Below are positions 2,629 to 40,332 of a stretch of DNA of 53,364 nt, piece after piece (position 1 is the first letter of the stretch; the number at the start of each line of letters is the position of its first letter). Position numbers and translations under genes: made by a program. Source of the stretch: an uncultured Clostridia bacterium (GTDB lineage Bacteria; Bacillota; Clostridia; Oscillospirales; Oscillospiraceae); the NCBI GenBank assembly GCA_947365965.1, contig CANAZG010000010.1, positions 1-53,364 on the forward strand, written 5' to 3'. Under the pieces are notes generated by a model. It was not told the DNA's origin. It worked only from the letters and a program-made list of their open reading frames with translations, and did not search any database.

Positions 2629-3597
2629 ATGCCCCTCGTAACTACTACCGAAATGTTCAAGAAGGCCTATAACGGCGGCTATGCCATCGGCGCTTTCAAT
2701 GTCAACAACATGGAGATCGTCCAGGGCATCACCGAGGCCGCCAAGGAGGTCAGCGCTCCCCTGATTTTGCAGGTGTCCAAGGGCGCCCGGGCCTACGCCA
2801 ACCACACCTATCTGGTCAAGCTGGTTGAGGCCGCCATCATCGAGACCGGCCTGCCCATCTGCCTGCACCTGGACCACGGCGACAGCTTCGAGACCTGCAA
2901 GAGCTGCATTGACGGCGGCTTCACCTCCGTGATGATCGACGCCAGCTCCAAGCCCTTTGCCGAGAACATTGAGATCACCAAGAAGGTGGTGGAGTACGCC
3001 CACGACCACGGCGTGGTGGTAGAGGCCGAGCTGGGCAGTCTGGCCGGCGTGGAGGACGAGGTCCAGGTCTCCGCCGAGGACTCCTCCTACACCCGTCCCG
3101 AGGAGGTTGAGGAGTTCGTCAACAAGACCGGCTGCGACTCCCTGGCCATCGCCATCGGCACCAGCCACGGCGCCTACAAGTTCACCGCCGCCCAGTGCAC
3201 CCGCAACGAGAAGGGCGAGCTGGTTCCCCCGCCCCTGCGCTTCGACATCCTCGACGAGGTGGTCAAGCGTCTGCCCGGCTTCCCCATCGTGCTCCATGGC
3301 TCCTCCTCCGTGCCCCAGGAGTTCGTGAAGATGGTCAACGCCAACGGCGGCAAGATGCCCGACGCCGTGGGCATCCCCGAGGAGCAGCTCCGTCAGGCCG
3401 CCCGCAGCGCCGTGTGCAAGATCAACATTGACTCCGATCTGCGTCTGGCCATGACCGGCACCATCCGCCAGTTCTTCACCGAGCACCCCGACAAGTTCGA
3501 TCCCCGGGAGTACCTCAAGCCCGCCCGTGCCGCCATCAAGGAGCTGGTCAAGCACAAGCTGATCGATGTCCTGGGCTGCGACGGCAAGGCGTTCTAA
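2629..3597 (+). CDS. fba: Class II fructose-bisphosphate aldolase
   Basis: This enzyme interconverts fructose 1,6-bisphosphate with DHAP and glyceraldehyde 3-phosphate in glycolysis. The 322-residue protein shows the class II zinc site: LHLDHGDSF with Asp82 and His83, the GTSHGAYKF His and the VLHGSSSVP His. The N-terminal GAFNVNNMEI and the DASSKPFAENIE segment are also typical. Its start follows AAGGAGG by nine bases. Codon use is strongly biased to C-ending codons, as expected for a highly expressed glycolytic gene. It is followed by a strong stem-loop and appears monocistronic. Confidence 0.95.
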   Translation: MPLVTTTEMFKKAYNGGYAIGAFNVNNMEIVQGITEAAKEVSAPLILQVSKGARAYANHTYLVKLVEAAIIETGLPICLHLDHGDSFETCKSCIDGGFTSVMIDASSKPFAENIEITKKVVEYAHDHGVVVEAELGSLAGVEDEVQVSAEDSSYTRPEEVEEFVNKTGCDSLAIAIGTSHGAYKFTAAQCTRNEKGELVPPPLRFDILDEVVKRLPGFPIVLHGSSSVPQEFVKMVNANGGKMPDAVGIPEEQLRQAARSAVCKINIDSDLRLAMTGTIRQFFTEHPDKFDPREYLKPARAAIKELVKHKLIDVLGCDGKAF

Positions 3598-5110: not shown

Positions 5111-5482
5111 ATGAAGCGGGAACCCATTGAGGTCTGCGAGGTCAGTGTCATTCACGAGGATGTACTGGCCAGGGTGAAAGCGCGGATGCCTGACGAGGAG
5201 CCGGTCTACGAGGTCTCAGAGCTTTTTAAGGTCTTCGGGGACAGCACCCGGGCCCGGATCATCTGCGCGCTGAACGTCGAGGAGATGTGCGTGTGCGATT
5301 TGGCGGCGCTGCTGAACATGAGCCAGAGCGCCATCAGCCACCAGCTGCGGCTGCTGAAGGTCTCCAGGATCGTCAAGAGCCGCAAGCAGGGGAGGGTGGT
5401 CTACTACTCCCTGGACGACGCCCACATCGGACAGATTTTTGCCATGGCCTTTGACCATGTGATGGAAGAAATGGAGGGATAA
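5111..5482 (+). CDS. ArsR/SmtB-family metal-sensing repressor
   Basis: This 123-residue winged-helix protein is translated from an ATG preceded by AGAGGAGG. The core ELFKVFGDSTRARII and the recognition helix MSQSAISHQLRLLK are typical of ArsR/SmtB repressors. Two metal sites are suggested. Cys residues in the EMCVCDLA helix match the alpha-3 site of CadC. The C-terminal helix has Asp-x-His, then His eleven residues after that His and Glu three further on (DDAH, FDHVME), which reproduces the alpha-5 zinc site of SmtB. It lies three bases before the P-type ATPase gene, so it very likely represses that pump until Zn(II) or Cd(II) binds. Confidence 0.88.
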   Translation: MKREPIEVCEVSVIHEDVLARVKARMPDEEPVYEVSELFKVFGDSTRARIICALNVEEMCVCDLAALLNMSQSAISHQLRLLKVSRIVKSRKQGRVVYYSLDDAHIGQIFAMAFDHVMEEMEG

Positions 5483-5485
5483 ACC

Positions 5486-7633
5486 ATGAATAAGGAGAAC
5501 CTTTCCGCCCAGAGGGACCACTGTGAGCATGACCACTGCGACTGCGGTCACGAGCACCGCCACGACCATGACCAGTGCGGCTGCGGTCACGAACACCACC
5601 ACGACCATGACCAGTGCGGCTGCGGTCACGGGCACCACCACGACCATGACCACTGCAACTGCGGTCACGAGCACCACCACGACCATGACCACTGCGGCTG
5701 CGGTCACGAGCATCACCACCATCATGACCACGGCGACGGCTGTAACTGCGGCCACGACCACAACCATGAGCAGGACCCGGCGGAGGCCCGCAAGGAGCTG
5801 CTTACCCTGGGCGTGGGGGCGGCGCTGCTGATTGCAGGGGTGCTGCTGAAGGTACTTTTGCCCCAGATTCCCTGGGCCTCCACAGCGGTACTGCTGGCGG
5901 CCTTCGGGGTGGTGGCGGCGGAGATCCTGATCCAGGCGGTGGGCAATATCCGCCACGGGGATATCTTCGGGGAGAGCTTTCTGATGACCATTGCCGGCAT
6001 TGGCGCTGTGTGTATCGGGGAGATCCCGGAGGGCGTGATGGTGTTCCTCCTGTACCGACTGGGGGAGTACCTGCAAACCAAGGCTGTGTCCTCCTCCCGC
6101 AAGTCCATTTCCGCTCTGCTGGACGTGCGGCCGGACCGGGCCAACCTGCTGGAAAACGGGGAGAGCAGGGAGGTGGAGGCGGAGAGCGTGTCCGTGGGAC
6201 AGACCATCCTGGTGCGGCCCGGGGAGAAGGTGCCCCTGGATGGGGTTGTGCTGCAAGGCGCGTCCCAGCTGGACACCGCAGCGCTCACCGGCGAGTCCAT
6301 GCCCCGGGAGATTACCGCTGGCCAGCAGGTGATGGCGGGGTGCATCAACCTCAGCGGCGCCCTGGAGATCCGGGTGGAGAAGAGCTTCGGCGAGTCCACG
6401 GCCAGCAAGATCCTGGAGATGGTGGAGAACGCCTCGGAGAAGAAGGCCTCCAGCGAGAAGTTCATCACCCGCTTTGCCAGGGTGTACACCCCCATCGTCT
6501 GTCTGGCAGCGGTGGTGGTGGCCCTGCTGCCGCCCCTGGCGGGCCTCATGAGCTGGGAGCGGTCCGTGTACAGCGCCCTGTGCTTTCTGGTCATCTCCTG
6601 CCCCTGCGCCCTGGTGATCTCCGTGCCCCTCAGCTTCTTTGCCGGCATTGGACGGGCCTCCCGGGAGGGTGTGCTGGTCAAGGGAGGCAACCACCTGGAG
6701 ACCCTGGCGGAGGCCCAGATTGTGGCCTTCGACAAGACCGGCACCCTGACAGAGGGACGCTTCTCCGTGTCCCAGTGCCGCCCGGCGGAGGGCATTTCCC
6801 AGGAAAGACTCCTGGAGCTGGCCGCCCTGGCGGAGTGCCGCTCCACCCATCCCATCGCTCAGTCCATCCTGGCCGCCTGGGGCGGGCAGGTTGACGAGGC
6901 AAAATTGTCCGATTATCAGGAGACCTCAGGCCATGGCGTGGCGGTCACAGTGGATGGGCAGCGGATTATTGCCGGCAAGAGAAACTACTTAACAGAGCTT
7001 GGCATATCTCTGCCAGAGATGCCTGACACAGCGGCTACAGCGGTCTATACCGCCCTGGACGGGGTCTACCAGGGGGTCATTCTCCTCCGGGATGCCCCCA
7101 AGGAGGACGCAAAGGGGGCCATCAGCGCCCTGCGGGAGCTGGGGGTGGACAGGACGGCCATGCTCTCCGGCGACAGCGCCCCGGTGGTGGAGGAGATCGC
7201 CCGGGAGATCGGCCTGGATCAGGCCGTGGGCGGGCTGCTGCCCCAGGATAAGCTGACGGAGCTGGAGAAGCTCCGGAGCCAGCTGACAGGGAAGGGCAGG
7301 CTCCTCTACGCCGGGGACGGCATCAACGACACGCCGGTGCTGGCGGCGGCGGACATCGGCATCGCTATGGGCGGCCTGGGGGCGGACGCGGCCATTGAGA
7401 CGGCGGACGTTATCATCATGGGCGACGAGCCCAGCAAGATCGCCTCCGGCATCCGCATTGCCCGCCGAACCAACCGCATCGCCACGGAGAACATCGTCTT
7501 CGCCATTGCCGTCAAGCTGCTGGTGATGATCCTCTCCGTCCTGGGCCACATCGAGCTGTGGGCAGGCGTGTTCGCCGACGTTGGCGTGTGTATGCTGTGC
7601 GTGCTCAACACGCTGCGGATCAACAAAAAATAG
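5486..7633 (+). CDS. cadA: Zn/Cd-type P1B ATPase with His/Cys-rich N-terminus
   Basis: This 715-residue metal-exporting ATPase has the phosphorylation site FDKTGTLT (Asp near 415), the intramembrane SCPCALV motif (about 371), the STHPIA His-Pro motif (about 453) and GDGIND (about 611). SCPCALV is the CPC class typical of Zn/Cd/Pb pumps. The usual N-terminal CxxC heavy-metal domain is absent. Residues 15 to about 95 are instead tandem His/Cys-rich repeats likely to hold Zn or Cd in the cytosol. It starts three bases after the ArsR/SmtB gene and shares its promoter. Substrate is inferred from the regulator's metal site and the CPC motif. Confidence 0.9.
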   Translation: MNKENLSAQRDHCEHDHCDCGHEHRHDHDQCGCGHEHHHDHDQCGCGHGHHHDHDHCNCGHEHHHDHDHCGCGHEHHHHHDHGDGCNCGHDHNHEQDPAEARKELLTLGVGAALLIAGVLLKVLLPQIPWASTAVLLAAFGVVAAEILIQAVGNIRHGDIFGESFLMTIAGIGAVCIGEIPEGVMVFLLYRLGEYLQTKAVSSSRKSISALLDVRPDRANLLENGESREVEAESVSVGQTILVRPGEKVPLDGVVLQGASQLDTAALTGESMPREITAGQQVMAGCINLSGALEIRVEKSFGESTASKILEMVENASEKKASSEKFITRFARVYTPIVCLAAVVVALLPPLAGLMSWERSVYSALCFLVISCPCALVISVPLSFFAGIGRASREGVLVKGGNHLETLAEAQIVAFDKTGTLTEGRFSVSQCRPAEGISQERLLELAALAECRSTHPIAQSILAAWGGQVDEAKLSDYQETSGHGVAVTVDGQRIIAGKRNYLTELGISLPEMPDTAATAVYTALDGVYQGVILLRDAPKEDAKGAISALRELGVDRTAMLSGDSAPVVEEIAREIGLDQAVGGLLPQDKLTELEKLRSQLTGKGRLLYAGDGINDTPVLAAADIGIAMGGLGADAAIETADVIIMGDEPSKIASGIRIARRTNRIATENIVFAIAVKLLVMILSVLGHIELWAGVFADVGVCMLCVLNTLRINKK
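5528..5716 (+). repeat. 39 bp in-frame tandem repeats in the ATPase N-terminus
   Basis: A partial 33 bp unit (5528-5560) is followed by four 39 bp units (5561-5599, 5600-5638, 5639-5677, 5678-5716). Each full unit encodes the 13-residue motif HDHDQCGCGHEHH or a close variant. Unit-to-unit identity is high enough that copy number could change by slippage or recombination without breaking the frame. Confidence 0.9.
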
Positions 7634-8954: not shown

Positions 8955-10049
8955 TTACTGATCTTTGGGCGGCTTCACCCGCCCCAGGGGGTTTGCCCTG
9001 GCGGCCACGCGAAGGGCCTCGTTGTCAATATGGGTGTAAATCTCGGTGGTGTTCAGGTGCTCGTGGCCCAGCACCTCCTGGACCGCCTTGACATCCACGC
9101 CGTTCTGGAGCATGAGGGTGGCGGCGGTGTGGCGGAGCTTGTGGGAGGAGTACTGGGCGCTGTCCAGCCCGGCCTGGGAGAGATGCTTTTTCACCAGGGC
9201 GTGGACATTGGAGCGGCTGATGCGCTGGTTTCGGGAGGAGAGGAAGAGGGCGTTCTGGTCCCGGCCGCTGACGGGCCGCCGCACCGCCAGATACCGCTCC
9301 AGGGCGGCCTTGCAGGCGTCGTTGAGATAGACAATGCGCACCTTGCTGCCCTTGCCCAGCACCCGCAGCGCGTCCCCCTGGATATCCGTCAGATTCAGGC
9401 CGATGAGCTCGGAGATCCGCAGGCCGCAGTTGAGAAAGATGGTGAGAATGCAGTAGTCCCGCTCCTTGTGGGGCCCGTCCACGCTGGCGAGCAGGTCCAG
9501 GCTCTCGTCCAGGGTCAGATACCTGGGCAGCGTTTTCCGCAGCTTGGGGGAGTCCAGCTCCTTGACCGGGTTGTCCTCCAGGAGATGGGCCTTGTTGGTG
9601 AGGTAGTTAAAAAAGGAGCGGAGGGTGGCGATCTTCCGGGCCCGGGTGGCGGCGCTGAGGCCGTACTCGGTCCGGCTGCTGTTTTGCTGCTGGGCCCGGT
9701 CCCGGCTGAGATAGGTCAGATATCCATAGATATCCGTCAGGGTGATGGCGCGGACAAAGGCAGCGTCCACATCCATGATGGAGATCTCATCCCAGGGCGT
9801 GTCCCGCAACGAACGGTCCCGGGCCTGCTTCATGTAGCGAAAGAAGTTTCTCAGGTCCAGGAAATATTCGTCTACAGTTTTCTGGGAGTGGGCCTTGATG
9901 GTCTCATGGTAGGATAAGAAGTCGCAGAGGATCTGCGGCGCTTCGTCTCGATAGTTGTTCACAGCGGCTCGGCGCGGTATACGGCGGTCCGGGGCTGGTT
10001 TTCCGGGTTTGCCCTCCCCTGCATTGAACAAAATTTTTATTTTGTTCAA
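8955..10049 (-). CDS. XerC/XerD-like tyrosine recombinase
   Basis: This protein of up to 364 residues has a core-binding N-terminal domain and a C-terminal catalytic domain with all tyrosine-recombinase residues: Arg in CGLRISEL, Lys in GKGSKVRIV, HKLRHTAAT, His in GHEHLNTTEIY and the nucleophilic Tyr in that last segment. The catalytic half closely follows XerC/XerD, suggesting chromosome-dimer resolution, but the N-terminus is longer than usual. A small-element integrase is the alternative. The outermost start is a TTG without a good ribosome binding site, inside a 26 bp palindrome; a GTG at VNNYRDEAP (codon 30) is a second option. The start is therefore uncertain. Confidence 0.85.
   Translation of the reverse strand: MNKIKILFNAGEGKPGKPAPDRRIPRRAAVNNYRDEAPQILCDFLSYHETIKAHSQKTVDEYFLDLRNFFRYMKQARDRSLRDTPWDEISIMDVDAAFVRAITLTDIYGYLTYLSRDRAQQQNSSRTEYGLSAATRARKIATLRSFFNYLTNKAHLLEDNPVKELDSPKLRKTLPRYLTLDESLDLLASVDGPHKERDYCILTIFLNCGLRISELIGLNLTDIQGDALRVLGKGSKVRIVYLNDACKAALERYLAVRRPVSGRDQNALFLSSRNQRISRSNVHALVKKHLSQAGLDSAQYSSHKLRHTAATLMLQNGVDVKAVQEVLGHEHLNTTEIYTHIDNEALRVAARANPLGRVKPPKDQ
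10024..10049. repeat. 26 bp palindrome at the recombinase start
   Basis: A perfect 11 bp inverted repeat, TTGAACAAAAT (10024-10034) and ATTTTGTTCAA (10039-10049), is separated by TTTT. It covers the first codons of the recombinase reading frame. An operator, a recombinase recognition site or an mRNA hairpin are all possible. Confidence 0.8.
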
Positions 10050-10179
10050 TTATGTATATCCCAGCGCCTGGACCTCCCTTCCGGTTTTATTGCGTATGAT
10101 TTCATTATAGCGGAAGATGGTCTGTTGTCAATAACGCTGGTCCGCAATTTTTCGGACAGCTGCGGCGATACGCGTCGAA

Positions 10180-10428
10180 TCAGCCGAAGTCGTGTCTGAA
10201 CCCGCCGTCGCTGCCTACATTCTCCAGCGCGGTTACAATGGCCTCGATCTTATGGAAGCATGCTGGATCGTCCAGGCTCTCATCCGCAATGATCTCCTTG
10301 ATTTTGCAGAGCGCATTGTAGCTTTCCAGTTCCACCACCATCGCCGCGCTTTCGATAAATTCTGGCAATGACACGTCTATATTCATTTTTTCTATAGAGC
10401 GTATCAAAATTTCTTTGAAAAGATTCAT
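10180..10428 (-). CDS. Small hypothetical protein beside an XRE regulator
   Basis: This 82-residue protein begins MNLFKEILIRSIEKMN and is largely helical and acidic, with Cys in ALCKI and ACFHK. I do not recognise a family. The ATG at 10428 is chosen over an ATG 24 bases upstream because GGAGG lies eight bases before it. It is divergent from the XRE-type regulator and shares a control region containing a perfect inverted repeat, so the two probably form a small regulatory pair. An antitoxin, a regulator partner or a remnant of a mobile element are possible roles. Confidence 0.6.
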   Translation of the reverse strand: MNLFKEILIRSIEKMNIDVSLPEFIESAAMVVELESYNALCKIKEIIADESLDDPACFHKIEAIVTALENVGSDGGFRHDFG

Positions 10429-10443
10429 AATTTTTCCTCCATT

Positions 10444-10460
10444 TACATACACAGTATGTA
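10444..10460. promoter_or_regulatory. Candidate operator between divergent small genes
   Basis: TACATAC (10444-10450) and GTATGTA (10454-10460) form a perfect inverted repeat with a 3-base centre. It lies upstream of the minus-strand small gene, and similar ATACATATG sequences recur near the start of the XRE gene. Binding by the adjacent XRE protein is inferred. Confidence 0.55.
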
Positions 10461-10509
10461 TTTTACGGAATTATATAATATATAATAAGGTAAAATATAT
10501 ATCATACAT

Positions 10510-10791
10510 ATGGAGCGTAGGAAATTTGTGATGCGAGTTATGCAATTCAAGGGAAAGAAAAATCTTATACATATGCAATTACAACTCATGCGCGTCCGCC
10601 GTGATCTCTCTCAGAGTGAGTTAGCGGCACAGATGCAGATATTAGGCACTAATATTGACCAACAGGCCATCAGCAACATCGAGAACAACAAACGGGTTGT
10701 CACCGACTTTGAGCTGGCCTGCTTCTGTAAGGTCCTGCACTGTACGGAGCGGGAACTCCTTCAAGATTACTATGAGAAATATGGCCTCTAA
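10510..10791 (+). CDS. XRE-family helix-turn-helix regulator
   Basis: This protein of up to 93 residues holds a Cro/CI-type HTH: LMRVRRDLSQSELAAQM, then NIDQQAISNIENNKRVV, then a third helix ELACFCKVLHCTERELL. The C-terminal DYYEKYGL is short, so there is no effector domain. An ATG at 10531, nine bases after AGGA, is an alternative start that keeps the domain intact. Surrounding DNA is AT-rich compared with its neighbours. It is likely a repressor of its own locus acting at the inverted repeat 10444-10460. Nearby tyrosine recombinase and small-RNA genes suggest a decayed mobile region, but that is inference. Confidence 0.78.
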   Translation: MERRKFVMRVMQFKGKKNLIHMQLQLMRVRRDLSQSELAAQMQILGTNIDQQAISNIENNKRVVTDFELACFCKVLHCTERELLQDYYEKYGL

Positions 10792-10812
10792 GTACGAAGG
10801 ATCCATATTGAT

Positions 10813-10841
10813 TTGACAAAACAGAGACAGCCGTATATAAT
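10813..10841 (+). promoter_or_regulatory. Perfect-consensus promoter of small RNA copy 1
   Basis: TTGACA (10813-10818), exactly 17 bp, TATAAT (10836-10841). The same 29 bp arrangement recurs 164 bp downstream with nearly identical flanks. Confidence 0.85.
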
Positions 10842-10846
10842 AAGGA

Positions 10847-10970
10847 CCAGAGGGGCGCTGCTACGGCGGTTAGCCCTTCACGGATTACATAGTTTTGCTA
10901 TGTTGACCGCTCGGGGGCTGTCCGGGCGGTCAACGCATATCGTGGGATCCCCTCCCCTGCGTATATTTTT
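10847..10970 (+). ncRNA. Candidate orphan antitoxin-like small RNA (copy 1)
   Basis: Starting just after a perfect promoter, this segment is the first of two tandem copies (period 164 bp). It holds a leader with GCGCTGCTACGGCGGTTAGC, a hairpin ACATAG/CTATGT (10887-10892 with 10898-10903) and a stem GTTGACCGC/GCGGTCAAC (10902-10910 with 10926-10934). It ends near a short stem ACGCA/TGCGT (10933-10962) followed by ATATTTTT. The copies differ mainly in loops. In the ACATAG hairpin, copy 2 has a different but still paired sequence. No peptide with a ribosome binding site is encoded, and no toxin frame lies opposite. Ends are estimated. Confidence 0.55.
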
Positions 10971-10976
10971 ATGGGC

Positions 10977-11005
10977 TTGACAAAACAGAGACAGCCATAT
11001 ATAAT
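10977..11005 (+). promoter_or_regulatory. Perfect-consensus promoter of small RNA copy 2
   Basis: TTGACA (10977-10982), 17 bp, TATAAT (11000-11005), with the same spacer sequence as copy 1 except for one base. Confidence 0.85.
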
Positions 11006-11010
11006 AAGGA

Positions 11011-11097
11011 CAGAAGGGCGCTGTTACGGCGGTTAGCCCCTAACCTCAATCATAGCAAAGCTATGTTGACCGCTCGGGTGCTGGCCGGGCGGTCAAC
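11011..11097 (+). ncRNA. Candidate RNA antitoxin (copy 2), convergent with toxin mRNA
   Basis: The RNA would begin near 11011 with AGAAGGGCGCTGTTAC and GGCGGTTAGC, form a short hairpin (CATAG/CTATG around 11050-11064) and end in or after the stem GTTGACCGC/GCGGTCAAC (11065-11073 with 11089-11097). That stem contains the stop codon of the opposite-strand 28-residue peptide gene. The RNA is therefore antisense to the 3' part of that mRNA, the layout of convergent type I antitoxins such as RatA or SR4. The 3' end is not fixed: no strong T-tract follows. Confidence 0.55.
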
Positions 11098-11179
11098 GCG
11101 CATTTGTGGACAGTATGTACAACGCCCATACCAGGCAGATCAGGAATCGCAAAACTGCAATTACCCGCCTTTTCCACAT
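11093..11179 (-). CDS. 28-residue hydrophobic peptide, candidate type I toxin
   Basis: The frame starts ATG at 11179 and ends TGA at 11093-11095. The peptide begins MWKRRVIAVLRF and continues as one hydrophobic helix (about residues 6-23) with a positively charged N-terminus and a short polar tail ending STNAR. This is the build of type I membrane toxins. AGGGGGTGA lies five bases upstream, and that site is paired in a CCCCC/GGGGG hairpin (11203-11199 with 11192-11188), so the start may be masked in the mRNA. The transcript has a perfect promoter at 11269-11297 and an 83-base leader. The leader shares a 5' block with the convergent small RNAs. I know no named family for it. Confidence 0.65.
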   Translation of the reverse strand: MWKRRVIAVLRFLICLVWALYILSTNAR

Positions 11180-11268
11180 CAGCCTCACCCCCTTTCCCGG
11201 GGGAGCGCTAACCGCCTTTATGTAACAGTGCCCTTCTGGCCTCCGCTCTTTTGAGCTTTGGCGTGTCC

Positions 11269-11297
11269 ATTATATGATACGCAGCGATTTTTGTCAA
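11269..11297 (-). promoter_or_regulatory. Perfect-consensus promoter of the peptide mRNA
   Basis: On the minus strand TTGACA (11297-11292), 17 bp, TATAAT (11274-11269). Transcription would start near 11262, about 83 bases before the peptide start codon. Confidence 0.85.
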
Positions 11298-11340
11298 ATT
11301 TTATTTGTATGTGTACGAATCATGCTGTATCCATAAGCAT

Positions 11341-11375
11341 ACCCGTGCGGGGCTTCTCCCCCGCACGGGTTTTTC
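11341..11375. terminator. Strong stem-loop terminator
   Basis: ACCCGTGCGGGG (11341-11352) pairs with CCCCGCACGGGT (11359-11370), followed by TTTTTC on the plus strand. It insulates the small-RNA locus from the antiporter gene and may stop transcripts from both sides. Confidence 0.8.
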
Positions 11376-11384
11376 TATGTATGT

Positions 11385-12350
11385 TTACGCCCGGCACGTC
11401 AGAAACAGATACCCTCCGTACACCGCCAGCAGAGCCGCACCCTGCCATCGCTGGAATCGGGCGGAGACCATGGCGGGTATGACGGCGATGCACCCCACCA
11501 GCAGACATGCCGGCAGATCAACGGCGCTGGAGACCGGCGCAATGGGCAGGGCCTCGCCGGACACCAGGGCGCTCATGGGCAGGATCAGGGTCAGATCCAG
11601 GATGTTCGCCCCCAGAATGTTCCCGATGGAGAGCGCGGACTGCCTCTTTGCGATGGCGGTGACGGTGGTGACCAGCTCCGGCAGGGACGTGCCCACGGCC
11701 ACGATGGTGACGCCGATGATCCGCTCGGACACCCCCGCCAGCCGGGCCAGGGCGCCGCCGCTGTCCACCAGCAGGTCCGCCCCCATGACCACGGCCACCG
11801 CGCCTGCGGTGAATTTGAGGCACTGGAAGAGGAGATCCCTTCTGGCCGGCGCGGGGCGGAAGATGCTCAGATCCCCCGCACCGCCGCAGCGCATGGAGCG
11901 GTGGGCGCAGCGCAGGTTCTCAAAGAGGAACAGGGCGAACACCGCCATCAGGGCCAGGGACGGCCCCAGCCCCACCGCCCCCTCCCTGCCGCCTGCCGCC
12001 ACAATCCAGGCGGCGGCCAGCATCAGAAGGGACTTGAAGAGATAGTCCCCCCGGCGGATGCAAACGGGCATACAGATCACCGACAGGGCCATAATGAGTC
12101 CCAGGTTGGCGGTGACGCTGCCCACGGCGTTGCCCACGGCCATGTCCGTCTTCCCCTGGAGGGCAGCCATGGCCGACACCAGCATCTCCGGCAGCGTGGT
12201 GGCCAGACTGACAATGGTGGCCCCCACGATCAGCTTTGGGATGCCGCTGACCTCGGCTATGTAGGACGCGGCGTCCACAAACCAGTCCCCGCCTTTGACG
12301 ATGAGAATGATTCCTCCAAGAAAAATCACCAAAATGAGCGCATAGTCCAT
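11385..12350 (-). CDS. Calcium/sodium antiporter (CaCA family, YrbG type)
   Basis: This 321-residue polytopic protein has the two inverted alpha-repeats of cation/Ca2+ exchangers: GATIVSLATTLPE near residue 45 and GVTIVAVGTSLPE in the second half, each with the conserved Glu. About ten membrane helices are visible, split by a short loop around LRCAHRSMRCGG. The ATG at 12350 follows AGGGGAGGGGAGAGC and is preferred over a start 33 bases upstream. It would exchange cytosolic Ca2+ for Na+ (or K+/Na+). It is separated from the MerR gene upstream by a terminator. Confidence 0.9.
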   Translation of the reverse strand: MDYALILVIFLGGIILIVKGGDWFVDAASYIAEVSGIPKLIVGATIVSLATTLPEMLVSAMAALQGKTDMAVGNAVGSVTANLGLIMALSVICMPVCIRRGDYLFKSLLMLAAAWIVAAGGREGAVGLGPSLALMAVFALFLFENLRCAHRSMRCGGAGDLSIFRPAPARRDLLFQCLKFTAGAVAVVMGADLLVDSGGALARLAGVSERIIGVTIVAVGTSLPELVTTVTAIAKRQSALSIGNILGANILDLTLILPMSALVSGEALPIAPVSSAVDLPACLLVGCIAVIPAMVSARFQRWQGAALLAVYGGYLFLTCRA

Positions 12351-12452
12351 GCTCTCCCCTCCCCTTCTGCTGTTCCACAACACGGCAGCTCCAGTCTACC
12401 ATGTCCCGAATGGGGAAGGAGCTCTGATTTTGTCGTCTGGCAAAATATTGAG

Positions 12453-34844: not shown

Positions 34845-36374
34845 CTATATGTTCCAAAGCACCTTCGTGCTGCCATCCTCGCTGATAACAATTTTATGTA
34901 TCATAATCATAGCGACAGCCTTTTTGCGCTTGTAGTCGGCAGTCCTCCATGACTTCGCCAGATTGACAACAACATCGGTTTCATCATCACGGCTTTTCAA
35001 GTCCTCTATCCGCTCATACAGAGCCAGCCGGTCCCTCTTGAGCTGGGTAGCCTTTTGATTCGCCAGCGCCAGAAGATCATCGTTGAATCCACCCGCCAGC
35101 ATAGTGTCCAAAAGCTGTTTCTCCGACTTCTCAATAGCCTTGATTTTCAGCTTCAGCTCGTTGACCTCTGCCGTGTCTCCTTTTCGGGTAGTGCGGTTCA
35201 TCTCCTTCAGATCTGCCAGCTTCACGGAGATGCACTCATAAACCATATTCTCCAAATCCTCAGCATAGATCGTCACCTTCGGCCCTGTACAGGTTTTCTT
35301 GTGGGATTTTCCGGTGCAGTTGAAATACCGCCGCATCTCGCCGCTCTTGTTGATCTTCCCCTTGATGGTGGTCATGGTGTGGCCACACTTCTCACAGACC
35401 ACCTTCCCTGCCAGCCAACTGGTAGGGTTGTTGACGCTGTTCCCGATCTGCCGGTTCTTCTCCAGCTTCCGCTGGCATCTGAGCCAGATGTCAGAATCCA
35501 CAATACCGGGGTGGGTTAAGAGCACCAGCTTCATATCCGACCAATCCGAGCTGCTGGGGTCATGTTTGGTGTGACCGTAGAGCTGCGCCCCATTCTCCCC
35601 GGTAAACATAGATACGTCTGTGACCATCTGAACGCCGTGGCGGTCATAGTAGTCGTACACATCGGAATCGGTCTTGACGTAGATAGGGTTCTTTAGCAGT
35701 GTGGACAGCTTCGCCGTTGTCCAACTGCTGCCATTCAAGGGCTGCTTCCCCTCGGCTACCAGAATATCCAGGAGCCGCCGCAGTGACACGCTCTCCTGAG
35801 CGTAGACCTCGAAGATGTAGCGTACCTGCTCTACCTCAGCGGGGATTGGATTCAGCTTCTTAGTCTTGACATTATGAATGACTGTCGGAACCAACTCGAA
35901 GCCATAGGGCTGGCGGCCGCCCATATAGAACCCCATTTCACTGCGGTGGGCGTATGCCTGGGTGACACGGTTGATAATGGATGTCCGCTCAAACTCGGCG
36001 AACACCATCAGGAGCTTGACGATCATCTCCCCATAAGGCGAGGATGTGTCAAAAGACTCCTGAGAGGACACGAACTCAACCTTGTGCTCCTTGAACTCCT
36101 GCAAAATGTTCACGAAGTCCGACAGAGAACGGCTGATACGATCCAGCTTGTAAACGATGACCTTTTTGACCTTCCCCTGCCGCACCAGCTTCATCATCTT
36201 CTGGAAGCCGTCCCGGTTGACATTGCCGCCGGAGAAGCCGTTGTCCACAAAGGTTATGATCTTTTCGTCCCGCTCATCGGGCTTAATAACAGACCTGCAA
36301 TACTCAAGCTGGGTTTCGCAGCTAATGCTGTTCTCCCGCTCCACCGACTTACGGGCATACAGAATGATCGCCAT
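34845..36374 (-). CDS. Large serine recombinase (integrase)
   Basis: This 509-residue protein has the resolvase catalytic domain with Ser10 in ILYARKSVERE, YKLDRISRSLSDF and FDTSSPYGEMIVKLL, followed by the Recombinase domain (about residues 160-290). A zinc ribbon with CEKCGHTM and the FNCTGKSHKKTC pair and a C-terminal coiled coil (about 390-460) complete the large serine integrase layout used by Tn5397/Tn4451-type elements. The ATG at 36374 follows GGGGGTG and is preferred to one nine bases upstream. It is probably the enzyme that inserted the left half of the island. All catalytic residues appear intact. Confidence 0.92.
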   Translation of the reverse strand: MAIILYARKSVERENSISCETQLEYCRSVIKPDERDEKIITFVDNGFSGGNVNRDGFQKMMKLVRQGKVKKVIVYKLDRISRSLSDFVNILQEFKEHKVEFVSSQESFDTSSPYGEMIVKLLMVFAEFERTSIINRVTQAYAHRSEMGFYMGGRQPYGFELVPTVIHNVKTKKLNPIPAEVEQVRYIFEVYAQESVSLRRLLDILVAEGKQPLNGSSWTTAKLSTLLKNPIYVKTDSDVYDYYDRHGVQMVTDVSMFTGENGAQLYGHTKHDPSSSDWSDMKLVLLTHPGIVDSDIWLRCQRKLEKNRQIGNSVNNPTSWLAGKVVCEKCGHTMTTIKGKINKSGEMRRYFNCTGKSHKKTCTGPKVTIYAEDLENMVYECISVKLADLKEMNRTTRKGDTAEVNELKLKIKAIEKSEKQLLDTMLAGGFNDDLLALANQKATQLKRDRLALYERIEDLKSRDDETDVVVNLAKSWRTADYKRKKAVAMIMIHKIVISEDGSTKVLWNI

Positions 36375-36415
36375 TTGACACACCCCCTTTCCTCATGGTA
36401 AAATGTATGTACTTC

Positions 36416-38285: not shown

Positions 38286-38588
38286 TTACTGTTTCCCGAT
38301 CAGAGAATCTTCAATCTCTTGGTAACATTGCTGACATCTCGCCAATGCTTCTATGAAGTTATCCAGGCACTCAAAATTGAGACGGTCTTCCTCGACTGAC
38401 CTGCCCGGTGCGATTTCTAGAGCAATGGGAAAATGCTTGCAGAACAGTTCCCCGATGATAAACAAACGGCGGCTATCTGACTTCTTCTTTGCTTCCCTTG
38501 CCTGATTCTCGACCAAAATGTTCCTCTGTTCGAGTTGTTCCTCTCTCTTCCTAGCTCGTGCAAGTCGTTCTTCAACACTGATTCTCAT
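38286..38588 (-). CDS. Small coiled-coil protein of the mobilization operon
   Basis: A 100-residue protein starting MRISVEERLARARKREEQLEQRN, strongly coiled-coil in its first 40 residues, with IIGELFCKHFPIAL in the middle. Similar short proteins, often called DUF3847, sit beside relaxases and coupling proteins of Clostridia elements and are thought to be relaxosome accessories. Its ATG overlaps the stop of the VirD4-like gene by four bases, so translation is coupled. Confidence 0.65.
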   Translation of the reverse strand: MRISVEERLARARKREEQLEQRNILVENQAREAKKKSDSRRLFIIGELFCKHFPIALEIAPGRSVEEDRLNFECLDNFIEALARCQQCYQEIEDSLIGKQ

Positions 38589-40057
38589 TCTGTGTACCTC
38601 CTAAAATATTCCGCAATGGTTTTATCGAATGTGGGAATTGGCTGGTCTGTCACTGTGGCTGGCAGCTTGATTGTACTGAGGAATCCGTATGGCGTATGCA
38701 GCCATATGTCTTGATTAGTGCTGAACTCATGTGGGTGGATCAAGGGTTCACGAATTTCTTGGACTTGCGCTCCCCAAGATGATCGCTCCATGATGGAATT
38801 AAAACTCTGAGACACGCTGATCTTTGCAGTCGCAATGGTGCCGATCATTCGGCTTAGGTACTCTTGTGTCTCTGGTTCTGTGACTTGCAGAATTGCCTTG
38901 TATTGACAATTATCCACCAAGATTTTACGAATGTCAGAACCATAGACTGCATCAAGCTGTGCTATACTTTGAATTACGAGATACAGAGTGACCTTCTTAG
39001 AGCGCAACGTTGTCATAGCTTCGGTGATTACCTCCATCCGCCCCAACAACGGGAACTCGTCTAACAGTAACAAGATTGGCTTCGTTTCTGCTCCCTGGGG
39101 ACTATGTTCGTCGGGACGGCGTTCGATCTGCCGGATTAGCTGCGTAATCATCAACCGAATCACACCACTCCACTGTTCCAATCGAGACTGATCCAGGCAC
39201 AGAAATACGTTAGGAGCATCTTCGTTCATTACAATATCTTTCCATGAAAAAGATACCGTATTTTCATCCTTTGACAACGCATACTGAATGTCGGGATTAG
39301 TAGCAAAGATCATGGTGTACTGCTTAACATCCGTGCCAATAGCGGCCTGATGCTCTGGTTTCAAGGAAGAAATATCACTGACGAACGTCTTAGCGAGAGA
39401 TACATTACCTGCCATGATCTTCTTGCATAAGTCGGCCACAGATGTAGTCTGCACCAACAAAATGGTATCAATGAAGTCGTACCCTTTTTCAAAATAGTAG
39501 ATAATCGCACCCGATAGAAAATCTCGTGCCATATTGATCCAGTACGGCTCCCTCACATCTAACGGCATAGGGATAATGGCGTTAGCGATCTCTAGAACAT
39601 ACTGGACTAAATGTGGATCATTTCTCTCCAACAACGCATACACATCATAGTGAACTCCGCCGTTGGTCGGGGCGAATACGATGTGCGACCTTCTTGCAAG
39701 CCCCCTATGCTGCAAAATCTCATAGCAACTCGACATTTCGCCCTTTATGTCAAGAACCACAGCAGGATCGTCCATCGTCCTAAGTGTTGACTTAGCAAGA
39801 AAGTGACTTTTGCCAGAACCGTTGATTCCCACAACCAGAATATTTCCATCATCGGTTGAGCGTTTCCCCACATAGTACCCCTTGCCATTGCCTGTATCCA
39901 ATCCTAGAAACACGCCAGAATCTTCAACATCCAAAATCATATCATCTGGAATATTTCTGCCTGGCTCAATTTTGGGCCTGTCGATCTGTGAGATCATTGG
40001 ATATGCTGACATAATGCCACTATACATCATCATGTCCGTCTTTTTCTTCTTTCCCAT
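38585..40057 (-). CDS. VirD4/TraG-like coupling ATPase without membrane helices
   Basis: The 490-residue protein has Walker A in VVGINGSGKSHFLAK (about residue 75), Walker B in ILLLLDEFPLLG and the T4CP segment VTLYLVIQSIAQLDAVYG. It contains no N-terminal transmembrane region. Start at MGKKKKTDMMM is supported by CAGGAGGCAACTACT. Such soluble VirD4-like proteins occur in mobilizable elements that borrow the secretion channel of a conjugative element. It would hand the relaxase-DNA complex to that channel. Confidence 0.87.
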   Translation of the reverse strand: MGKKKKTDMMMYSGIMSAYPMISQIDRPKIEPGRNIPDDMILDVEDSGVFLGLDTGNGKGYYVGKRSTDDGNILVVGINGSGKSHFLAKSTLRTMDDPAVVLDIKGEMSSCYEILQHRGLARRSHIVFAPTNGGVHYDVYALLERNDPHLVQYVLEIANAIIPMPLDVREPYWINMARDFLSGAIIYYFEKGYDFIDTILLVQTTSVADLCKKIMAGNVSLAKTFVSDISSLKPEHQAAIGTDVKQYTMIFATNPDIQYALSKDENTVSFSWKDIVMNEDAPNVFLCLDQSRLEQWSGVIRLMITQLIRQIERRPDEHSPQGAETKPILLLLDEFPLLGRMEVITEAMTTLRSKKVTLYLVIQSIAQLDAVYGSDIRKILVDNCQYKAILQVTEPETQEYLSRMIGTIATAKISVSQSFNSIMERSSWGAQVQEIREPLIHPHEFSTNQDIWLHTPYGFLSTIKLPATVTDQPIPTFDKTIAEYFRRYTE

Positions 40058-40332
40058 AGTAGTTGCCTCCTGCGAACATTGTACCTGGAGCAACAGTGAT
40101 AATCCTGCATTTTCGTCCACCGTTTCGTTTGGGTACAATTTGGATTATTCAGAATCAGTGTGCCGCCTGCAACGTACCAACTGCGCCCGAATTTTTTCTC
40201 CATCCGGCATAACTTAAACAGATTTCACGTTGTCCAAGCCCTTTTCGTCTGGCGAAAAAATTCAGGCACATCCGGCACGTTCCAAAACAGAAAGCAGATA
40301 ACAGTGCTCTTTGAACTAGCGAGAAGTGTTAC

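Follow-up and report, generated by a model that had tools for sequence, protein, structure and literature searches.

A convergent locus of an Oscillospiraceae bacterium with the anatomy of a type I toxin-antitoxin module, with a predicted new family of toxins on a distinctive RNA frame

Introduction

The closest described relatives of the locus treated here are the type I toxin-antitoxin systems TxpA/RatA and BsrG/SR4, whose genes converge and overlap at their 3' ends, the complementary stretches being given as 100 to 140 bp (PMC6562991) and the txpA/ratA overlap as about 75 nt (PMC4147584). A related layout was reported for par of pAD1 (parpAD1), which combines convergent promoters, a common stem, repeats at the 5' ends of both RNAs and a Shine-Dalgarno (SD) sequence held in a hairpin, whereby the repeats are direct in the DNA and render the two RNAs complementary (PMC7472228). 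For hok/sok of plasmid R1 the toxin mRNA was described to stay closed until its 3' end is processed (PMC4147584). In a stretch of 53,364 nucleotides from an uncultured Clostridia bacterium (contig CANAZG010000010.1 of assembly GCA_947365965.1; hereafter the window), positions 10977 to 11297 had been proposed, from the letters alone, to hold an unannotated convergent locus of the type I kind, encoding a membrane-helix peptide of 28 residues. The follow-up reported here leads us to regard this locus as very probably a type I toxin-antitoxin module of TxpA/RatA-like geometry, carrying a new toxin family on a distinctive RNA frame, and as part of what looks like an undescribed family of RNA-controlled genes for predicted toxins.

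Anatomy of the locus

All parts named in the original prediction were recovered where it had placed them (Table 1), namely the peptide frame, the two perfect convergent promoters, the leader of 83 bases, the CCCCC/GGGGG hairpin around the ribosome binding site and the stem, transcribed from both sides, that contains the stop codon of the peptide. The small RNA, expected from its promoter and terminator-like signals, would be made from the plus strand and would enter the 3' end of the peptide gene. Three features go beyond what had been described. A third perfect promoter precedes an orphan antitoxin copy, so that three such promoters lie within 500 bases, and 5 promoter-like sites were counted in 10300-12000 where 1.5 were expected. 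The plus-strand RNA unit is present as a tandem duplicate (10806-10936 and 10970-11099, 82-86% alike), and opposite the first copy no peptide open reading frame (ORF) was found. Finally, owing to an inverted repeat (11007-11027 / 11222-11242, 90% identity), the toxin leader copies the 5' end of the antisense RNA in the same sense.

That these parts exceed chance is concluded from their recurrence in divergent relatives. The antisense RNA matched a covariance model with an expectation value (E) of 3.8e-20 in its own genome, this sequence being among the 23 from which the model was built. Over the locus no Rfam family came up to its gathering threshold, the best one falling short with 22.7 versus 54.1 bits, and blastn of the locus against plasmids and phages gave no match. 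Upstream of the toxin promoter lies a terminator-like signal of the plus strand, which could halt read-through from the antitoxin.

Table 1. Predicted features of the convergent locus and of its flanks (positions of the window)
Feature	Position	Strand	Basis
Predicted toxin ORF, 28 codons, MWKRRVIAVLRFLICLVWALYILSTNAR	11093..11179	-	frame kept in relatives; synonymous changes prevail (see text)
Toxin promoter TTGACA-17-TATAAT, 12/12	11269..11297	-	promoter scan
Toxin mRNA leader, 83 bases	11180..11262	-	predicted start 7 bases past -10 box
Leader box GGGCACTGTTACATAAAGGCGGTTAGC	11207..11233	-	same sense as antitoxin 5' hairpin, near-identical sequence
Hairpin sequestering ribosome binding site (GGGGGTG, 11186-11192)	11184..11205	-	CUCCCCC/GGGGGUGAG pairing; sequence and predicted fold
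Antitoxin promoter TTGACA-17-TATAAT, 12/12	10977..11005	+	promoter scan
Predicted antisense (antitoxin) RNA, ends predicted	11012..11107	+	covariance-model match 11005-11109
Stem GTTGACCGCTCGG / CCGGGCGGTCAAC, 13+13 bases, with toxin stop codon (11093-11095)	11065..11097 (11065-11077 / 11085-11097)	both	terminator-like on +
Toxin mRNA 3' box, complement of antitoxin 5' hairpin, can pair with leader box	11010..11040	-	predicted panhandle
Orphan copy: promoter (10813-10841) and antitoxin-like RNA	10813..10946	+	scan, repeat and model matches
Terminator-like site upstream of toxin promoter	11341..11370	+	signal scan
Cro/CI-type helix-turn-helix (HTH) protein, 93 amino acids	10510..10791	+	neighbouring gene; no homologue beside other units
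Tyrosine (phage-type) integrase	8955..10049	-	PF00589, 4.4e-40
Sodium/calcium-exchanger-like gene	11385..12383		best solved relative NCX_Mj, E 1.4e-32

Conservation of the peptide

The peptide frame, whose conservation in relatives the original prediction had put forward for checking, proved to be conserved. Across ten loci the 28 codons align without gaps, and 43 of the 45 pairs show less nonsynonymous (dN) than synonymous (dS) divergence; the second codon position is the least variable (0.30 as compared to 0.45 and 0.45). Wider comparisons were based on a strong set of 103 RNA matches scoring at least 50 bits, derived from 99 sources and including a few identical or nearly identical sequences. 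Opposite 83 of these 103 matches lies an ORF of 20-34 codons which has a ribosome site and a hydrophobic stretch and ends at the stem, while shuffling of the upstream DNA (20 shuffles) yielded a mean of 0.1 and a maximum of 1 out of 103. The figure of 83 is a floor, as the ribosome-site filter passed over family peptides in L121, L178, L179 and L180. The 20 matches lacking a scored ORF thus form a mixed set, which also comprises a broken peptide in L052 and antitoxin RNAs facing no peptide (such as the first copy in the window, L027:1286, L171 and L186), whereby the excess of toxin-less antitoxins arises partly by design, because the search starts from the antitoxin. Two loci without an intact toxin opposite the antitoxin carry a short insert with AGGCCTT...TCAAACAAGGCCT ends, situated within the peptide ORF in L052 (~1200-1400) and within the leader in L140 (~3120-3180).

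Two main types account for the peptides next to variants and a few outliers, one of 28 residues (MWK...TTKAC) and one of 31 residues (MGNGRWAKALRF...YISPKAC). From 77 distinct peptides 58 were aligned (class I), and the earlier statement that the peptide resembles no known one was borne out within the databases searched: the 58 class I peptides gave nothing convincing against Pfam (best E 0.017) and NCBIfam (best E 0.021), three family peptides had no convincing match in PHROGs, and none of the 58 matched the Hol_Tox model (PF16935) at E up to 10. Likewise, a profile search against solved structures returned no match for the peptide, tblastn of a 31-residue peptide against phages gave none, and a 28-residue one searched against plasmids yielded a single poor match (E 7).

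Antisense RNA and promoters

The antisense RNA comprises two conserved hairpins, for which 7 of 21 predicted pairs show a two-sided change that keeps the pairing. For the stem holding the stop codon, the antitoxin strand gives the stabler fold of the two strands in all 100 distinct sequences; for the 5' hairpin it does so in 94 of 100, and the toxin strand in 3. This strand bias suggests that the stop stem is built mainly for the antitoxin. Past the stem, 65 of 103 rows have CTTTTG or CTTTTA as tail, which makes the stem a plausible antitoxin terminator; the run of T in the tail is complementary to the codon for Lys in the KAC end of the toxin.

Scored over 81 units, the promoter on the antitoxin side averages 11.75 of 12 and the best one on the toxin side 10.72, as compared to 7.53 for shuffled upstream DNA (toxin side alone shuffled). 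Within single units, the antitoxin-side score was higher in 56, equal in 24 and lower in 1. By sequence, the family hence presents an antisense RNA gene with its own promoter and a conserved RNA structure complementary to the toxin mRNA, facing a small hydrophobic peptide with a ribosome site and a conserved frame, and judged by this anatomy the locus works like a type I module.

The toxin mRNA

With at least four of its five bases paired, the SD sequence is predicted to be sequestered in 74 of 80 units (shuffles: mean 38.1, maximum 45). Its variable base takes part in a G-C pair in 39 of 80 units and in an A-U pair in 32, an exchange which keeps the pairing. A further lock may be formed by the leader, which can pair with the 3' end of its own mRNA because it copies the antitoxin 5' end. 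Leader pairing reaches -46.2 kcal/mol with the unit's own 3' box, -38.5 kcal/mol with the boxes of other units and -25.6 kcal/mol with shuffled boxes, in 75 of 81 units the own box pairs more strongly than 25 others do on average, and the predicted fold of the toxin mRNA in the window is a panhandle of leader and 3' end (z -6.3).

On the toxin strand, terminator-like hairpins past the antitoxin start were identified in 43 of 77 units (9.6 expected), 33 of which end 35-53 bases beyond that start. Toxin mRNAs ending there would cover the whole antitoxin gene and their 3' end would be able to pair with the leader. In 32 of 76 distinct units, the window not among them, the hairpin spans the antitoxin -35 hexamer, hence part of the antitoxin promoter forms an arm or loop of this hairpin. 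In the mirror scan, made on the antitoxin strand, 60 of 79 units had a terminator-like hairpin on the upstream side of the toxin start codon (15.4 expected), and in only 2 does it span the toxin -35 box. An end of the toxin mRNA at the complement of the antitoxin 5' hairpin was considered and rejected, as that hairpin is biased towards the antitoxin strand (see above) and the terminator-like hairpins sit further on, over the antitoxin promoter.

Distribution of the family

E-values of the covariance model are rough, and stricter filters apply in large searches. At E <= 0.001 the model matched 64 of 300 genomes of the taxonomic family, the window's own genome included, with up to 11 places per genome; the own genome holds 5 (E <= 0.002). 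Among 391 genomes from the class it matched the window's own genome alone (E <= 0.0001), and a single match came from another family of the same order (L030). A DNA search in 99 relatives returned 69-74% identity over most of the unit in G009, G013, G005 and G002, which belong to the window's genus, and in G053 from a different genus, next to many further partial homologues. A degenerate pattern in the International Union of Pure and Applied Chemistry code retrieved 15 stretches in genome_contigs, under the titles Oscillospiraceae, Oscillibacter, Dysosmobacter, Flavonifractor and uncultured Clostridia or Firmicutes, and 5 in viral_contigs. Flavonifractor plautii ATCC 29863, which is among the former, carries a complete unit (L053, contig NZ_JH417694.1). 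In L174:3001-3863 three modules follow one another every 379 bases, their peptides starting with GTG (VWKTWKKILILILLVTLLFLASSILFPIYAS and a relative). A literature search found no description of such a system or layout, most subscription papers lying outside its reach.

Related RNA frames that face other peptides

Weaker model matches keep the sequence of the antitoxin 5' hairpin and yet face other peptides, among them an M[VL]TYS-LFQFCLVIIG-type and a MRITLHIGAYTVTIIVKRRNRHSAK-type; the leader box was retained in 18 of 29 tested (0.2 expected by shuffling). Three of 12 peptides assigned to class II were matched by the Hol_Tox model, those of L222 and L225 above the Pfam cut-off (25.9 and 30.2 bits versus 23.3) and that of L182 below it. 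Hol_Tox we take to be the TxpA-type family. The units carrying it resemble class I in the leader box and in the antitoxin 5' hairpin and differ in the peptide and in the stop-codon stem, and no description of Hol_Tox peptides on such an RNA frame was found in the literature search. The window's own genome has two tandem modules on the related frame (contig C4 of G000; L183:3001-3098 and 3369-3466), encoding MLTYSELFQFCLVIIGLCGLFLQVYNCKKK and a near copy, which belong to the M[VL]TYS-LFQFCLVIIG-type; these class II peptides (C4:39967, C4:40335) did not match Pfam Hol_Tox, their likeness being seen by alignment and by eye, and all six frames of this genome gave no Hol_Tox match. A third class, of MRITLHIGAYTVTIIVKRRNRHSAK type, reads into the antitoxin stem (L208, L211, L213-L215, L220, L223, L148:2633 and L124:49), and two tested members had no match in Pfam.

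As a tentative generalization, to which we give slightly less than an even chance, it is proposed that Oscillospiraceae use a general type I RNA frame with the toxin as exchangeable cassette. The leader, the antitoxin 5' hairpin and the layout would remain constant, whereas the peptide and the stop-codon stem would change jointly (MWK...KAC / MGNGRW...PKAC, Hol_Tox, MRITLHI-type), whereby the toxin mRNA would lock itself through pairing with the complement of its own antidote and the antitoxin promoter would often be built into the toxin terminator hairpin. Should toxins indeed be swapped on a fixed frame, one could ask by experiment what portion of the RNA determines specificity, and whether an orphan antitoxin gives protection from other copies. 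The search for type I modules is hampered by peptides that are tiny and mutually unlike. In the present family it is the RNA frame that can be searched for, a single covariance model recovering a multi-copy family of a gut lineage and tying a peptide family without convincing Pfam match to a known toxin family.

Genomic surroundings

The module lies between the exchanger-like gene and the HTH gene (Table 1). The exchanger was matched in 18 other congeners, in two of them as short pieces only. At 17 congener exchanger loci, some partial and some perhaps paralogues, the model identified no module (best 14 bits, E 0.28), and blastn in 19 congener exchanger loci detected no HTH gene. In L190, L195 and L200 the exchanger is near a gene that sits at ~360-1800 in the window, and the gene order there points to the first 11 kb of the window having been inverted or rearranged. 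The absence of the module from these congener loci together with the changed gene order places it in a rearranged, accessory stretch. The integrase gene, which is close to the HTH gene and to the module, bears a perfect inverted repeat of 12 bases at its start (10023-10034 / 10039-10050).

The HTH gene was considered as a standard partner and dismissed, since blastp found no homologue among 683 ORFs near the units (E 0.01). Other HTH proteins form a loose cluster in five loci (L108, L140, L164, L179 and L180), too varied and at too scattered distances for a partner. Small Cro/CI-type HTH genes occur within ~600 bases of some units (L108, L164, L180 and others), similar to the situation in the window, and are not closely related to the HTH gene found there.

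Of the proteins neighbouring the units 148 of 169 were examined, and the best 25 of 171 and 25 of 109 families were listed. The listed matches include at least three XkdN-like tail chaperones and at least two phage integrases, one integrase match having an E-value identical to that of the window's integrase. A gene of the XkdN-like cluster adjoins the class I unit in L126, L133 and L141; hence, some units are inside prophages. In L126 and L141 a long ORF, named tape-measure-like by eye, is also near. The txpA/ratA pair in the skin element of B. subtilis has a similar position.

Elsewhere in the window, a repeat of 39-base period (5475-5786, six overlapping 117-base copies) marks the start of a P-type ATPase gene (5486-7633, +), and a serine recombinase (34845-36383) and a type IV secretion coupling protein (38585-40138) point to a conjugative element.

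Proposed mechanism and alternative explanations

The suggested mechanism assumes that the minus strand makes the mRNA for a membrane peptide acting as toxin, and that the plus strand makes an antisense RNA of ~95 bases from what would usually be the stronger promoter in the family, ending at the stem that carries the stop codon of the toxin on its other strand. Two locks would keep the toxin mRNA silent, namely the local hairpin around its ribosome site and the pairing of its leader with its own 3' end. The antitoxin would pair over its whole length with the 3' part of the toxin mRNA, which would most likely be followed by RNase III decay, as for RatA. Loss of the antitoxin or trimming of the mRNA would then allow some peptide to be made, which would act on the membrane.

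Several observations weigh against this assignment, part of them concerning the window itself. Its locus is involved in both of the 2 pairs out of 45 in which dN exceeds dS, the tail of its antitoxin (GCGCATTTGTGG) is poorer in T than those most often seen, its antitoxin folded alone keeps the stop stem and loses the 5' hairpin of the alignment consensus, and its promoters, both perfect, show no ranking. The panhandle requires an mRNA that extends across the antitoxin gene, and the search of the window for a toxin-strand terminator, covering 11030 down to 10651, was negative. Moreover, relatedness or gene conversion between the inverted repeats may have inflated the coevolution seen between leader and 3' box, and the Hol_Tox link consists of two weak model matches (L222 and L225, E 5.8e-5 and 9.2e-5) and the leader box.

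Given that toxicity is a prediction and that the peptide family has no convincing match in Pfam and NCBIfam, the peptide might be a small membrane regulator or signalling peptide under antisense RNA control and no toxin. We consider this improbable, because Hol_Tox peptides occur on the related frame in L222 and L225, the antitoxin-side promoter is equal or better in 80 of 81 units, several genomes harbour many copies, and antitoxins are kept where the peptide is gone or broken (such as in the first copy in the window, L052 and L186), although the search is biased towards antitoxins. An antitoxin that blocks translation by pairing with the leader, as in par(pAD1)/Fst, would be in line with the convergent promoters, the common stem, the repeats at the RNA 5' ends and the SD hairpin (PMC7472228); it is rendered very unlikely by the inverted instead of direct orientation of the repeats and by a pairing energy of -39.8 kcal/mol between antitoxin and leader, little stronger than the background of -37.2 kcal/mol for the shuffled antitoxin, for which reason such pairing was rejected.

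That some genomes hold many copies, that the ends are inverted repeats, that units form tandem arrays and that some copies lie near contig ends would also be expected of a small mobile repeat, akin to miniature inverted-repeat transposable elements, with an incidental ORF. Such an element would not account for a frame under purifying selection, for a base exchange that preserves the SD hairpin, nor for strand-specific RNA stems and toxin-side promoters above the shuffled background, so that this explanation is regarded as extremely unlikely.

Comparison with known systems

The closure of the hok mRNA at its 3' end, to which the name fbi is tied, resembles the panhandle modelled here, for which the mRNA 3' ends are predicted. 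Unlike hok/sok, the listed leader ORFs, inspected by eye, contain no conserved mok-like frame, and complementarity to the antitoxin lies in the 3' part of the toxin mRNA and not in the leader. With par of pAD1 (Fst, RNA I/RNA II) the locus shares the convergent promoters, the stem common to both RNAs, the repeats and the SD hairpin. The defining direct repeats were looked for and not found: being inverted, the repeats make the two RNA ends alike and not complementary, and the window peptide has neither the PXXXG(C) motif of Fst nor any proline.

As the original prediction had held, the locus matches TxpA/RatA and BsrG/SR4 in its convergent genes and their 3' overlap, the transcript ends being predicted (PMC6562991, PMC4147584). 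It differs from TxpA/RatA in its class I peptides, which are without similarity (0/58 Hol_Tox), and from both systems in that the antitoxin 5' end repeats the toxin leader and that a toxin-strand terminator lies over the antitoxin -35 box in the 32 of 76 units described above. A trait of BsrG/SR4 is that binding of the antitoxin extends the helix which sequesters the SD sequence. Judged by the sequence features compiled here, the geometry and the probable mode of action are those of TxpA/RatA and BsrG/SR4 (PMC6562991, PMC4147584, PMC6563280).
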